A DNA stretch of 64,000 bases. Origin: Nitrosophilus kaiyonis. GTDB taxonomy: Bacteria; Campylobacterota; Campylobacteria; Campylobacterales; Nitratiruptoraceae. Each line of letters begins with the position of its first letter. Position 1 is the stretch's first letter. Where the stretch lies: NCBI RefSeq assembly GCF_027943725.1, contig NZ_AP025696.1, forward strand, positions 1,093,501-1,157,500, given 5' to 3'. The notes below the pieces were generated by a model. It saw nothing but the letters and a program-made list of their open reading frames with translations. It searched no databases and was not told the DNA's origin. Positions 2,771 through 62,119 of this stretch are shown here, in pieces. Made by a program: the position numbers and the translations under genes.

Positions 2771-2877
2771 TGTTGAGTTAAGTAAGGTGAATGAGAAAGT
2801 TAGAAAGTAGTGAAGTGGAATAGCAGATAAGCTGTGAAGAAGCTAATTCCAAATTCCCAATTCCTAACTACTAATTA
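2771..2877 (+). repeat. Degenerate heptad-repeat leader element (copy A)
   Basis: Between metF and serB lies a purine-rich stretch (about 2771-2840) followed by a CTAATTC/CCAATTC-type stretch (2842-2877). The second part reads as 7-base units. A 15-base run ATTCCCAATTCCTAA (2853-2867) is identical to 10108-10122 in copy B. AAGTTAGAAAGTAG (starting near 2797) recurs in copy D on the other strand. It ends a few bases before the serB ribosome-binding site. Confidence 0.75.
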
Positions 2878-9544: not shown

Positions 9545-9994
9545 ATGGAGCAAATTCCAGATATAAATCCAGCATATTTAGAGCATATGATAGAACCTAA
9601 AAATTATGGGAAAATGGAAGAAGATGATGCAAAAGGTATAGGAAAAAACAAAGATAGTGGCGAAATGGTAATAATGCAGCTAAAAATTGATCCAAAAACA
9701 AAAAAAATTTTAGATATTAAATGGCAAACCAATGGATGTGGAACAACATTAGTTAGTGGAAGCCTTTTTAGTATAGAGTATAAAAGAGGTACAATTCAAG
9801 ATGGAATAGATTTTACAAACAAAGTTTTAGATAAAATAAAAGATAATCCCCCTGCAGATGCAGCTTGTGGAGAAGTTGTTGCAAGAGCATTTTTGGCAGC
9901 AATAAAAGATTATGAAGATAGAAAAAAGGGTATTAAAAAAGAGCATATTGAGTATGTCACACTTGCTTGTCCAGTTCCTGAAGAAAGCGAATAA
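9545..9994 (+). CDS. Stand-alone NifU/IscU-type scaffold-like protein
   Basis: A 149-residue protein aligned with the N-terminal scaffold domain of NifU/IscU, which assembles iron-sulfur clusters. Conserved parts are H-M-x-x-P-K-N-Y-G near residue 15-23, TNGCGTTLVSGS (second ligand Cys) and the ACGEVVARAFLAAI segment (third ligand Cys). By alignment, the position of the first ligand cysteine (normally A-C-G-D) reads DSGE, so a serine replaces it. An extra Cys sits near the C-terminus (LACP). It may be a modified scaffold or a regulatory relative. No partner iscS is next to it. Confidence 0.75.
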   Translation: MEQIPDINPAYLEHMIEPKNYGKMEEDDAKGIGKNKDSGEMVIMQLKIDPKTKKILDIKWQTNGCGTTLVSGSLFSIEYKRGTIQDGIDFTNKVLDKIKDNPPADAACGEVVARAFLAAIKDYEDRKKGIKKEHIEYVTLACPVPEESE

Positions 9995-10164
9995 GTTAGG
10001 AGACAAGGTGATAAGGTGGCAAGCAGTGAAGCTGAGAAGAGGAATAGGGCATAGCGGGATAGTGGAAAAGGTGTTCAGGAAGAAGGTTGAAAATAGAAGG
10101 AAAGCCAATTCCCAATTCCTAATTACCAATATCCAATGTCCAATGACTAATGACTAATTATTAA
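9995..10164 (+). repeat. Heptad-repeat leader element (copy B), longest copy
   Basis: A purine-rich arm (9995-10103) with AGG recurring in a loose 7-base rhythm is followed by eight successive 7-base units of CCAATTC/CTAATGA type (10105-10160). The next gene's ribosome-binding site AAAAGGA follows directly. GGAATAGGGCATAGCGGGAT (10041-10060) recurs with one inserted G at 62018-62038. GCCAATTCCCAATT (10104-10117) is identical to 62091-62104. The element has no coding pattern consistent with its neighbours. Confidence 0.85.
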
Positions 10165-10176
10165 AAGGATATCAAA

Positions 10177-10986
10177 ATGAGAGAAATTTTTAAAAAAAAG
10201 CATGAATTATGGTTGAAGGTTTTATTTTCTGCATTTGCGCTTCCAAAAGGTGAAATAAGTGATGTTTTACTAGATTTTGCAGATATTGAATTTAGACATA
10301 TGAAATGGATTGCAAAAGATATAGTTAAAAACAGAGGTGATTTTAATTTTGATAGAGATAAAATAGATATTAAAGCAAACAATTTTTATGAGTTAATAGA
10401 TAAACTTATTGATTCGCTTTTAGCTATAGAGATTTCTTACAAAGATAGCGCTTTATTTTATAGAATAAAAAATGATGAGAGATATATGATAGAAAAATTA
10501 AGAGAATTTAAAAAATTTGAAGATTTTGAAATAACTGCATTTAATAAAAATATGAAATATAAAAATTTAGATAAAAAATCTCTTGATGCTTTGATTTTGT
10601 TTTTATTTGAGGAGATATATAAAGAGTATGAATTAATTTTAGTCTATTTTTACTCATCAATTCATACAGATAATGTATCTCTTTACTCTATATATGAAGA
10701 TTTAATTTATGAGTCAAAATTTCATTTAAAAAGTTTTGCTTTTCTGCAAGCAAAACTTGGACTTTTGTCTCTTCCAAGAGAGGTAATGGAAGAGGTGTAT
10801 AAATTTGAAGATTTGAAAAAGTTTTTATTGGATGGTATTGAGGAAGAAAAGGGTGCTAAAGAACAGTGCAGGGCATTAGCTGCTGCAGTTAAAGACAAAG
10901 ATTTATCAAGTTTTTTTGAATTTATAAATAATCAAGAAGATTATCATATAAAATTAATGGAAGAGGCTTTAAAAATTATAGATTAA
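10177..10986 (+). CDS. Probable double ferritin-like (di-iron) protein
   Basis: A 269-residue helical protein with no signal peptide. It carries three carboxylate-histidine pairs typical of ferritin-like or rubrerythrin-like helices: E38-x-x-H41, E179-x-x-x-H183 and E254-x-x-H257. Further helix glutamates lie at about 85 and 222-224. The first half (about 1-110) and second half (about 135-269) look like two related helical units. Role is inferred: iron or oxygen/peroxide handling in the cytoplasm. The exact family is not recognised. The gene sits behind repeat element B, and its terminator lies within the convergent neighbour's 3' end. Confidence 0.6.
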   Translation: MREIFKKKHELWLKVLFSAFALPKGEISDVLLDFADIEFRHMKWIAKDIVKNRGDFNFDRDKIDIKANNFYELIDKLIDSLLAIEISYKDSALFYRIKNDERYMIEKLREFKKFEDFEITAFNKNMKYKNLDKKSLDALILFLFEEIYKEYELILVYFYSSIHTDNVSLYSIYEDLIYESKFHLKSFAFLQAKLGLLSLPREVMEEVYKFEDLKKFLLDGIEEEKGAKEQCRALAAAVKDKDLSSFFEFINNQEDYHIKLMEEALKIID

Positions 10987-23701: not shown

Positions 23702-23861
23702 AATTTCCTCCTTTATTCGTGATTCGTAATTCGTTATTCGTGAATGGCAAGTATTAAGTTCTAATTTTAATACTATTGGTAAATCCTTTACCGCTTCACT
23801 GTTTATCACCTATTTCACTATGTTCCTATTCTACTTTCTAACTTAATCTATTAACTAAACA
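23702..23861 (-). repeat. Heptad-repeat leader element (copy D)
   Basis: Read on the minus strand, a purine-rich arm begins with AAGTTAGAAAGTAG, identical to part of copy A. The arm runs through GTGAAATAGGTGATAAACAG-like sequence. The second arm ends in four successive 7-base units of the ACGAATA/ACGAATT type (23706-23735). The ribosome-binding site AGGAGG of the cytochrome gene follows. It thus has the same order and orientation toward its gene as copies A, B and C, but with a different heptad. Confidence 0.75.
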
Positions 23862-38610: not shown

Positions 38611-38740
38611 AAAAAGGTTGGGTAGTTGAGTTGATGAGTGGGTAAGTGGGTAAAAAACTTAATAATTTTAACCACTCAACAATTCAATTTTTTTAACCAC
38701 TCAACCACTCAACTTTTTTAACCACTCAACTTTTTTAAAA
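38611..38740 (+). repeat. Hairpin-forming leader element before ileS (copy F)
   Basis: The left arm (38626-38645) and right arm (38668-38687) are 20-base near-perfect complements (17 Watson-Crick pairs). ACCACTCAAC occurs four times (starting at 38671, 38696, 38704 and 38721), partly as a tandem in T-rich spacers. The stretch ends right before the ileS ribosome-binding site AAAAGGA. It has the same order (purine arm, then pyrimidine arm) as other leader elements but a different core. Confidence 0.75.
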
Positions 38741-47080: not shown

Positions 47081-47160
47081 ATATTGGTTATTAGTTATTG
47101 GTAAAAATTAAATATATGGTGTCTATATATACCAATTACCAATACACCAATAACCAATAT
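47081..47160 (+). repeat. Long hairpin of TTATTGG/CCAATAA repeats upstream of metX (copy E)
   Basis: ATATTGGTTATT (47081-47092) is a perfect 12-bp match with AATAACCAATAT (47149-47160). A further TATTGGTAA/TTACCAATA pairing lies inside. The arms are made of approximately 7-base units. A small internal palindrome (TATATA-rich) sits in the loop. It lies between metY and the metX promoter and may end the metY message. Confidence 0.8.
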
Positions 47161-59849: not shown

Positions 59850-62012
59850 TTGAGTATTCCAATAATTTTACCAAAAGTTTTAGAAGAAAAAGAGATAAAT
59901 AAAGAGTTAAGAAAATTAAAACTAAAAAAGAGTGATATTAAAAATATTTATCAAGCAAACAGTTCCACTTTAATTGTTTTAAAAAAGAGAGTGAAAATAA
60001 AGCCTACTAAATCTTTTATCCCATCTATAGAAGAAGAGGAAGAGATAAAATATATACATAAATTTGTAGAGGAGTATAAATATTTAATTGAACTTGAAAG
60101 AGTTGCTGAAATATCTGCTCAAATCAGTGAGATAAAAGGCTTTAGCGGGATTGAAAGAGAGATATTTGGAAGAGCCATATTAGATCTAAAGGGACAAAAA
60201 CAGCCAAAACAGTTTAATCTCTATTTTGTAAAATTTGGAAGAAACAAAATTATTGATACTGAAATTGCATCTGGAGATATTGTTTTAATAAGTAGAGGTG
60301 AGCCTTTAAAAAGTGATATAACAGGAACGGTTAGCGAAGTTAAAAAACATTTTATTACAGTAGCATTTGAAAATATGCCGCCTAAATGGGTCTATTCATA
60401 TGGGATTAGAGTAGATCTATATATAAATGATATAACTTTTAAAAGAATGGAAGAGAATCTTGAAATTTTAAGAAATGCTACTGGGAAAAAAAGATACATA
60501 AGAAATATTGCACTTGGATTAAAAGAGCCAGAGCCTTGTTCGAAGTCGGACTTCGAAGTTTTTAATGAAAGATTAAATGATTCACAAAAAGAAGCAGCAA
60601 AGTTTGCTTTAGGAAGCAAAGATGTTTTTTTAATACATGGACCTCCGGGAACTGGAAAAACAAGTACACTAATAGAGATAATTTTACAAGAAGTAAAAAG
60701 AGGAAACAAAGTCTTAGCAGTTGCAGATTCAAATATAGCAGTAGATAATATGTTACTTCGTTTATCAGATAAGGATATATCACTTGTTAGAATAGGACAT
60801 CCAGCAAGAATTATTGAAAAACTTCATGAATTTAGTATTCATGCTAAATATGAAAAAAGTTTTGAAGCTGAGGCTATTAAAAAGGGGTGGGAAGAGGTTG
60901 GTTTGTTGGTTAAAAAAAGAGAAGAGTTTAGCAAACCAACAGCTTCAAGAAGTAGAGGAATGAGCTTTGAGAGGATTTTAACATTAGCTGCAAGAGGAAA
61001 AAGCCAAAGAGGTGTTAGTGTAAAAACACTGCAATCTATGGCTAAATGGATAAAATATAATAGAAAAATTGAAGATCTTATAAATAGGCTTAGAATGGAA
61101 GAGGAAGAAGCATATAAAAATATTATAAAAACAAGTGATGTTGTTTTATCAACAAACTCTATGATAATGAGTGAGATTTTAAAAGATTTTGATTTTGATG
61201 TAGCTATTATAGATGAGGGAAGTCAGCAAATTGTTCCATCAACCTTTATTCCTATTATGCATGCAAAACGATTTATAATTGCAGGTGATCATAAACAGCT
61301 TCCACCAACTGTTGTTAGTGATGAAGCGCAAAAGCTTAAAAAATCTCTGTTTGAAGAGTTAATAGAGAATTTCCCTAAAAATTCAAAAATGTTGAAAGTC
61401 CAATATAGAATGAATGAAAAGATTATGAATTTTTCAAATCAAATGTTTTATGATGGAGAGTTAATAGCAGATGAGAGTGTGAAAGAGCATACATTAAATG
61501 ATTTTGATTTAAAAAAGCCTAAAAATTATGAAGATATTTTAGATAATACACCTATTGTATTTGTAAATACAAAAGGAATTGAAGCAAGAGAGAGCCTTCC
61601 AGATAGAAGTACAAGTTATGAAAATGTAAAAGAGGCCGAAATTGCGATAAATTTAGTTAAAGAGCTTTTAAATATGGGAATGAAAGAGGATGATATTGGA
61701 GTAATATCACCTTATTTATCTCAAGTTAAAAGGATAAAATCATCTTTACATAATGAAGAGATTTTAGTGGAAGTAAAAAGTGTAGATGGATTTCAAGGAA
61801 GAGAAAAAGAGGTTATTATAATTAGTTTTGTAAGAAGCAATGAGGAAGGAAACATAGGATTTTTAAAGGATCTTAGAAGATTAAATGTTGCTATTACAAG
61901 GGCAAAAAGAAAACTTATCTGTATAGGAGATGAAAATACATTAAATAAAGATGAAACATATAAAAAGTTTATAGAGTATATTGAAAAAGAGGGAAAAATA
62001 GTCAATTTGTAA
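59850..62012 (+). CDS. SF1B helicase, IGHMBP2/Upf1-like
   Basis: A 720-residue superfamily 1B helicase. Motif I is GPPGTGKTS (about residues 267-275), motif II is IIDEGSQQ, motif III is AGDHKQLPPTV, motif V/VI is VDGFQGREKE and LNVAITRAKRKL. It unwinds nucleic acid with ATP. The frame is open from 59709, but those codons overlap the divergent EI24 gene; TTG at 59850 with AAGGAG at 59840-59845 is the start. An insertion that encodes SKSDFEV just before motif I (60539-60560) is a copy of a hairpin repeat. Confidence 0.88.
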   Translation: MSIPIILPKVLEEKEINKELRKLKLKKSDIKNIYQANSSTLIVLKKRVKIKPTKSFIPSIEEEEEIKYIHKFVEEYKYLIELERVAEISAQISEIKGFSGIEREIFGRAILDLKGQKQPKQFNLYFVKFGRNKIIDTEIASGDIVLISRGEPLKSDITGTVSEVKKHFITVAFENMPPKWVYSYGIRVDLYINDITFKRMEENLEILRNATGKKRYIRNIALGLKEPEPCSKSDFEVFNERLNDSQKEAAKFALGSKDVFLIHGPPGTGKTSTLIEIILQEVKRGNKVLAVADSNIAVDNMLLRLSDKDISLVRIGHPARIIEKLHEFSIHAKYEKSFEAEAIKKGWEEVGLLVKKREEFSKPTASRSRGMSFERILTLAARGKSQRGVSVKTLQSMAKWIKYNRKIEDLINRLRMEEEEAYKNIIKTSDVVLSTNSMIMSEILKDFDFDVAIIDEGSQQIVPSTFIPIMHAKRFIIAGDHKQLPPTVVSDEAQKLKKSLFEELIENFPKNSKMLKVQYRMNEKIMNFSNQMFYDGELIADESVKEHTLNDFDLKKPKNYEDILDNTPIVFVNTKGIEARESLPDRSTSYENVKEAEIAINLVKELLNMGMKEDDIGVISPYLSQVKRIKSSLHNEEILVEVKSVDGFQGREKEVIIISFVRSNEEGNIGFLKDLRRLNVAITRAKRKLICIGDENTLNKDETYKKFIEYIEKEGKIVNL
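60539..60560. repeat. TTCGAAG-family hairpin inside the helicase gene
   Basis: Twenty-two bases identical to 52834-52855. The codons TCG AAG TCG GAC TTC GAA GTT read SKSDFEV, in frame, about 25 residues upstream of the helicase P-loop. No stop or frameshift results. It encodes a solvent-exposed stretch by guess. Confidence 0.85.
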
Positions 62013-62119
62013 TTAGTGGAATAGGGGCATAGCGGGATAGCAGGATGGTTGAATAGGTGGTAAGGGGATAAGAAGGTAAAGTGTAAAGTGGCCAATTCCC
62101 AATTACTAATTCCTAATTT
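62013..62119 (+). repeat. Heptad-repeat leader element (copy C)
   Basis: A purine-rich arm (62013-62090) is followed by four 7-base units of CCAATTC/CTAATTC type (62092-62119). The arm has GTAAAGT twice in tandem near 62076-62089. A 23-base segment (62018-62040) differs from 10041-10062 only by one inserted G. The ribosome-binding site of the thioredoxin-like gene (AAAGGAAG) follows. It begins directly after the helicase stop. Confidence 0.85.

Follow-up and report, generated by a model that had tools for sequence, protein, structure and literature searches.

Why should the ferritin-like gene of Nitrosophilus kaiyonis (G000) begin 182 bp beyond the stop codon of the NifU-like gene before it, when the two genes abut or overlap in seven other members of the family (G006-G012)? 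The gap lies in a 64,000-nucleotide stretch (the window; G000:C1:1093501-1157500) of a 1.77-Mb chromosome that is a single contig. From immediately 3' of the NifU-like stop codon (gene 9545-9994) it is occupied by a G-rich arm and then by a row of degenerate heptamers, CCAATTC CCAATTC CTAATTA CCAATAT CCAATGT CCAATGA CTAATGA CTAATTA, after which comes the ferritin-like gene's own Shine-Dalgarno site. The initial annotation had described this arrangement of purine-rich arm and 7-base units in the leaders of four genes, with related hairpins before ileS and metX, and all six sites hold the content described:

9995..10104, + strand: ferritin-like element, G-half (8-mer arm), G-rich and C-poor; lag-8 score 24.1
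10105..10164, + strand: ferritin-like element, C-half (YYAATNN heptamer row); lag-7 score 34.3
10163..10169, + strand: Shine-Dalgarno-like AAAAGGA of the ferritin-like gene, read directly, directly 3' of the heptamer row
2771..2841, + strand: serB element, G-half; lag-8 score 9.2
2842..2877, + strand: serB element, C-half heptamers; lag-7 score 15.8
23742..23861, - strand: cytochrome c element, G-half and centre, adjoining the stop codon of the preceding gene
23711..23741, - strand: cytochrome c element, C-half heptamers of the ACGAATN type; lag-7 score 17.6
38611..38740, + strand: ileS 8-mer hairpin element (GGTTGAGT / ACTCAACC words); lag-8 score 21.6, fold z = -5.16
47081..47160, + strand: metX heptamer hairpin element (TTATTGG / CCAATAA words); lag-7 score 9.0, fold z = -4.60
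62013..62091, + strand: thioredoxin-like element, G-half (8-mer arm), directly 3' of the stop codon of a helicase-like gene; lag-8 score 25.9
62092..62119, + strand: thioredoxin-like element, C-half CCAATTC CCAATTA CTAATTC CTAATTT; lag-7 score 17.0 for the enclosing segment

The ferritin-like protein itself (window 10177-10983) has no Pfam match and matches a PDB entry named bacterioferritin (9viw, E 4e-12); its closest named relatives come from Campylobacterota genomes, several of them metagenomic.

Local scores within the window peak at 10105, 23705 and 62054 for a lag of 7, and at 62012, 9998 and 38618 for a lag of 8, the first two of these being the highest at that lag. The arm described as purine-rich is thus itself a row of degenerate 8-mers, a feature to be added to the architecture as first drawn. 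The earlier reading was to stand only if copies recurred outside the window, if they were related to leaders in the rest of the genome and if their 7-base periodicity exceeded that of shuffled leaders. In 464 kb of G000 (the window plus 20 evenly spaced 20-kb stretches, with genes predicted by a home-made caller), the lag-7 threshold was passed by 36 of the 186 intergenic gaps of at least 40 bp and the lag-8 threshold by 13, while no gap passed either in ten dinucleotide shuffles; the control lags of 4-6 and 9-13 gave 0-3 passing gaps. Copies therefore recur throughout the genome, and none of the outcomes that would have overturned the earlier reading was obtained. Forty-three elements were found in the sample, which extrapolates to about 160 per genome, and the gaps that bear them account for 9.3 kb of the sampled 38 kb between genes. 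The CCAATTC word in the form CCAATTCCYAATT, with up to one mismatch, has 134 matches in the whole genome against 3 for the reversed pattern, and 25 of the 26 matches in the sample are intergenic. A shorter core, TTTAAAAACTTA, was rejected as a countable mark, its count being no better than that of its reversed control in this AT-rich genome. Figures given for relatives come from G001 (about 600 kb covered) and G003 (about 460 kb), two of the four congeners (G001-G004) in a comparison set that also held same-family genomes (G005-G012, G005 being of another genus) and more distant relatives.

The unit types first listed are present but were an incomplete sample of the vocabulary. In the C direction G000 uses YYAATNN, CTTAANN, ACGAATN and CCTTCNN, together with the 8-mers ACTCAACC, TATCCCGC and TTATCACC; in the G direction the main families are GTCATTA/GGAATTG, TTAAGNN, CGTGAAT and AGGNNGA, with GGTTGAGT, ATAGCGGG, GGTGATAA and GTGAAGCG as 8-mers. 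G005 adds 6-mers such as GTGTTA alongside 7-mers such as CACGAAT. The elements are thus not made from a single family of 7-nt units; several families and mixed unit lengths of 6, 7 and 8 nt are found. C is scarce in the G-words and G in the C-words. The G-rich half precedes the C-rich half in 42 of 43 elements of G000 (54 of 100 other gaps) and in 32 of 35 of G001 (101 of 176 other gaps), and it does so on both strands, since the reverse complement of G-then-C is again G-then-C. The polarity is also aligned with the genes: in G000, 35 of the 60-nt stretches 3' of a stop codon are rich in G and 1 in C, and of those 5' of the Shine-Dalgarno site and start 27 are rich in C and 5 in G. In the 33 co-directional gaps the first periodic stretch starts no more than 4 nt from the stop codon in 14, and the last stops 9-18 nt 5' of the start in 15. 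The term leader is nevertheless too narrow, for some elements sit between convergent genes or upstream of a -10-like box. Two simple proposals were rejected. Stop codons in all frames do not account for the G-words: they number only 0.121 versus 0.105 per position in G000 and 0.092 versus 0.087 in G001, and the first stop is not reached consistently sooner. The other proposal, that the arms of every element match, has clear support in G001 (about 4.9 sd) and lacks it in G000 (about 1.3 sd).

The words also tend to follow one another in a set order. In the YYAATNN rows of G000, units ending in TC lie 5' of units ending in GA or GT in all 102 such pairs, drawn from 21 rows, where permuting the units within rows gives 0.50 +/- 0.07; the endings trend, 5' to 3', through TC, TA, GA and GT. 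The relatives show the same bias (22:3 in G001, 3:0 in G003). Order across fourteen word classes is looser in G000 although above chance (0.69 versus a null of 0.58, maximum 0.63), and in G001 it is not above the null maximum. Elements at unrelated loci are about 80% identical in alignments that span 70-110 nt and include the G/C junction, and by eye about a dozen have a common centre and flanking order.

These regularities bear on the usual explanation for such arrays, the independent local growth of each by polymerase slippage on a chance seed. According to work cited by PMC4692102 and PMC4679880, no long simple repeat is more frequent in many bacteria than the heptamer, and slippage is proposed as the source. 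Slippage also agrees with the differences between the sister species G001 and G003, in which most elements are retained with point changes and with indels of 7, 14 and 12 nt, that is, of whole units. Independent growth would not be expected, however, to give 21 loci one word order, to leave different loci alignable over about 100 nt, or to combine several 7-mer and 8-mer word families within one element. Nor do the empty sites help it. Of the 84 gene pairs that are conserved in G000 and G001 (75% protein identity), 9 carry an element in G000 only, 4 in both genomes and 2 in G001 only, with orthologous gap lengths such as 378 versus 22, 167 versus 9, 147 versus 1 and 15 versus 256 bp; at the empty sites of 1-22 bp no seed word was seen. 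Pure local slippage is insufficient because it leaves the shared word order unexplained, and as a full account of these arrays we consider it unlikely. The word order over 21 loci and the empty sites in relatives together imply that copying between loci is part of the story, here at least.

The reading that we favour as probable makes each leader one copy of a repeat family that is dispersed, modular and non-coding, its copies inserted in gaps and reshaped by unit slippage. Many dispersed copies and empty orthologous sites, the marks of a mobile non-autonomous (MITE-like) repeat, are both found, and the earlier suggestion of a mobile or self-expanding leader is supported by the empty sites, the cross-locus alignments and the whole-unit indels. 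The patchy distribution among Campylobacterota and the like placement of the arrays in Xanthomonas and Nostoc, both described below, also speak for this reading. A copy is roughly 80-250 bp long and has two halves, C-poor G-words and then G-poor C-words; the words are 6-, 7- and 8-mers in which a core is fixed and about two positions are free, and one order is preferred. On this reading copies were put into intergenic gaps, where in co-directional gaps they often reach from the upstream stop codon to the Shine-Dalgarno site of the next gene, or were put upstream of a promoter. They may derive from one composite ancestor, multiplied by transposition or by copying from a template, and would afterwards have been edited by the gain and loss of single units through slippage. 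Most are perhaps tolerated passengers at places where no gene is harmed, rather than regulators, and their placement may be set by selection against damage and not by target preference.

Several observations weigh against the repeat-family reading. No transposase or reverse transcriptase candidate was found: the Y1_Tnp (RAYT) domain PF01797 is absent in G000-G008, and RVT_1 proteins number none in G000 or G003 and one in G001; a reverse transcriptase or a RAYT as the mobiliser was rejected on the absence of both from G000. The sites compared offered no clean insertion between near-identical genomes and showed no target duplication, the ends are G- and C-words of varying type, and no element has been caught moving. 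The order of all word classes is, as noted, only moderately strict. At some sites, moreover, the elements of relatives use different words at the same position. The serB gap carries words in G000 that differ from those in G001 and G003, and no element in G002, G004 or G005; upstream of gene 9 of L073, three different elements in G000, G003 and G005 precede the same -10-like box. Different words at the same place are also to be expected from local growth or replacement. Both arms are likewise built from other words at gene 15 of L082 in the comparison of G001 with G003.

Templated repair of breaks would be another way to write such elements. If both 3' ends at a break received G-words by telomerase-like template copying and were then joined, the product would read G-words then C-words on both strands, which explains the polarity without arm complementarity in G000 and fits the nearly C-free words of 6-8 nt and their preferred order. 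A precedent is DRT10, described in PMC12632851 as a bacterial reverse transcriptase that makes tandem-repeat DNA. Against it stand the absence of an RVT_1 protein from G000 and G003, with no enzyme candidate, and a polarity of the same sense in Xanthomonas and Nostoc, where selection on gene-friendly placement may suffice. We regard templated repair as very improbable.

The position of many elements, stopping 9-18 nt 5' of a start codon with a C-rich, G-poor half adjoining the Shine-Dalgarno site, would suit a regulatory RNA leader: a hairpin, a Rho-loading C-rich stretch or a site for a translation regulator, as suggested for the TAACTGA repeats discussed below. The ileS and metX hairpins do fold far better than shuffles (z = -5.2 and -4.6). 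The four main leaders, however, fold like shuffles (z of 0.08 for ferritin, -0.64 for serB, -0.22 for cytochrome c and +1.18 for thioredoxin), which rules out RNA structure as a general explanation; the proposal of an RNA structure thus holds for two of the six sites. It follows that the family has hairpin and non-hairpin members, ileS and metX being true hairpins of the same system. The only Rfam families in the window at gathering score are four tRNAs, and no leader matches. Further evidence against a leader function is that elements are gained and lost at orthologous genes within a genus (among the congeners read, the ileS hairpin is present in G000 only; it is absent at ileS in G001-G005), that a -10-like box lies downstream of some elements and convergent genes flank others, and that serB, ferritin-like, cytochrome c, thioredoxin, ileS and metX genes have no common theme. 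Pure RNA regulation is insufficient because it leaves the turnover and the sites upstream of promoters unexplained; we think it improbable as the general role.

Two longer repeats are often located inside the element-bearing gaps. The first, of about 175 nt, is dispersed (L061:12586-12765 (-), L011:1226-1405 (+), L144:4396-4569 (+), L202:8514-8860 (+)), with 29 matches in G000, where it lies within the G-half of elements in one orientation; in G001 and G003 it is found 5' of a dnaK-like gene. Searched for with a covariance model, it turns up in 30 of 200 Campylobacterales genomes, frequently as tandem copies. Fourteen copies give 52 consensus pairs, 29 of them with compensatory double changes, one copy folds at z = -3.5, and there is no Rfam match up to E = 1; the repeat looks like an undescribed structured RNA family. 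The second is a MITE-like palindromic repeat of about 150-200 nt, nested in heptamer rows, as at L061:5887-6085 (-) and in the serB leader of G001 (L123). G000 has seven long copies at 91-100% identity, G001 and G003 have about 25 matches each, and none was found in G002, G004 or G005; the serB leader of G003 holds an internally deleted version.

Beyond the genus the distribution is patchy. In a search of 397 Campylobacterota genomes, high counts of the row YAATGACYAATGACYAATG are confined to G000 (129), G015 (145), G069 (48), G247 (39) and G353 (15), which span three families, and congeners of G015 and G069 are without it. The same YAATGAC heptamer row is thus plentiful in individual genomes (G015, G069, G247, G353) of two families besides that of G000, and their congeners have none. 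Within the genus the CCAATTCC word is frequent in G000, G001 and G003 and not in G002 or G004. A Nostoc plasmid has the same CCAATGA row, between two ABC-permease genes; in searches of plasmids for composite elements this was the one match of the YYAATNN row, and four other queries gave none. A plasmid search with CCTTCAT rows gave matches. G001 retains, with different numbers of units, the AGAAGGT/CCTTCAT hairpins of L068:15717-16104 and L068:17541-17649, which seem older than the other elements. The first of these gaps also contains a small uncalled reading frame resembling ribosomal protein L36, which places the hairpins in a probable ribosomal-protein region. A wider formulation, which we advance as doubtful, is that of a putative mobile DNA family whose body is neither a gene nor a fixed palindrome but a row of 6- to 8-nt words in set order, with polarity on both strands. 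An as yet unrecognised activity, templated or of transposition, would write it into the gaps that separate a stop codon from a Shine-Dalgarno site, and would be at work patchily in other Campylobacterota families and in cyanobacteria too.

One consequence is the opening up of operons, 100-400 bp having been inserted between genes which in relatives touch or overlap. Another is that the origin of such arrays becomes testable within one genus, by setting the array-rich G000, G001 and G003 against G002 and G004, in which the probed word is nearly absent. Bacterial heptamer arrays have so far been reported piecemeal and are usually ascribed to slippage. Small dispersed repeats of cyanobacteria were reportedly treated by Elhai et al. 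in 2008. Like these and the STRR sequences, with which comparison was made via one Nostoc plasmid, the present elements are heptamers in gaps with longer repeats nested among them, here the MITE-like and 175-nt repeats. REP and REPIN sequences are short, dispersed, intergenic and partly palindromic DNA mobilised by RAYT; the elements resemble them in the first four respects but are tandem 6-8-mers without a fixed palindrome, in genomes (G000-G008) that have no Y1_Tnp gene.

The initial annotation knew of no description of this group. None was found for the exact group, or for Campylobacterota, in a literature search that missed most subscription papers, but close kin have been published (PMC4692102, PMC4679880). 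The STRR sequences of Calothrix and Nostoc, as cited in PMC4692102, are tandem heptamers in gaps. Rehm et al. (2015; PMC4692102) described GGGAATC / GGGGA(T/C)T (GGGNATN) arrays in Xanthomonas and Nostoc sp. PCC 7120, a unit very near GGGAATT, the commonest word of G001. Those arrays are likewise high-copy, degenerate, intergenic heptamers with inverted pairs, and their G-rich strand is coding after stops and non-coding before starts, as is also found in G000. They differ in having one word family per genome, where here many families of 6, 7 and 8 nt occur in one element and in a preferred order, and in that 90% of the repeats lie between the same genes in two species, whereas here many sites are empty in a congener. 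The TAACTGA direct repeats of marine Beggiatoaceae, Cyanobacteria and Bacteroidetes (MacGregor 2015; PMC4679880) are also intergenic heptamers just 5' of start codons, patchy over distant lineages, with 7-nt indels between close strains and no theme among the downstream genes. They consist, however, of a single exact word, with related heptamers rare, instead of many words, and they overlap the expected ribosome-binding site, which here comes after the array. Thus, the G000 family, with its 7-nt periodicity above chance, is a kind of STRR/GGGNATN/TAACTGA intergenic heptamer array, and what is new in it relative to this known kin is the many words, the mixture of 6-, 7- and 8-nt units, their preferred order and their frequent gain and loss.
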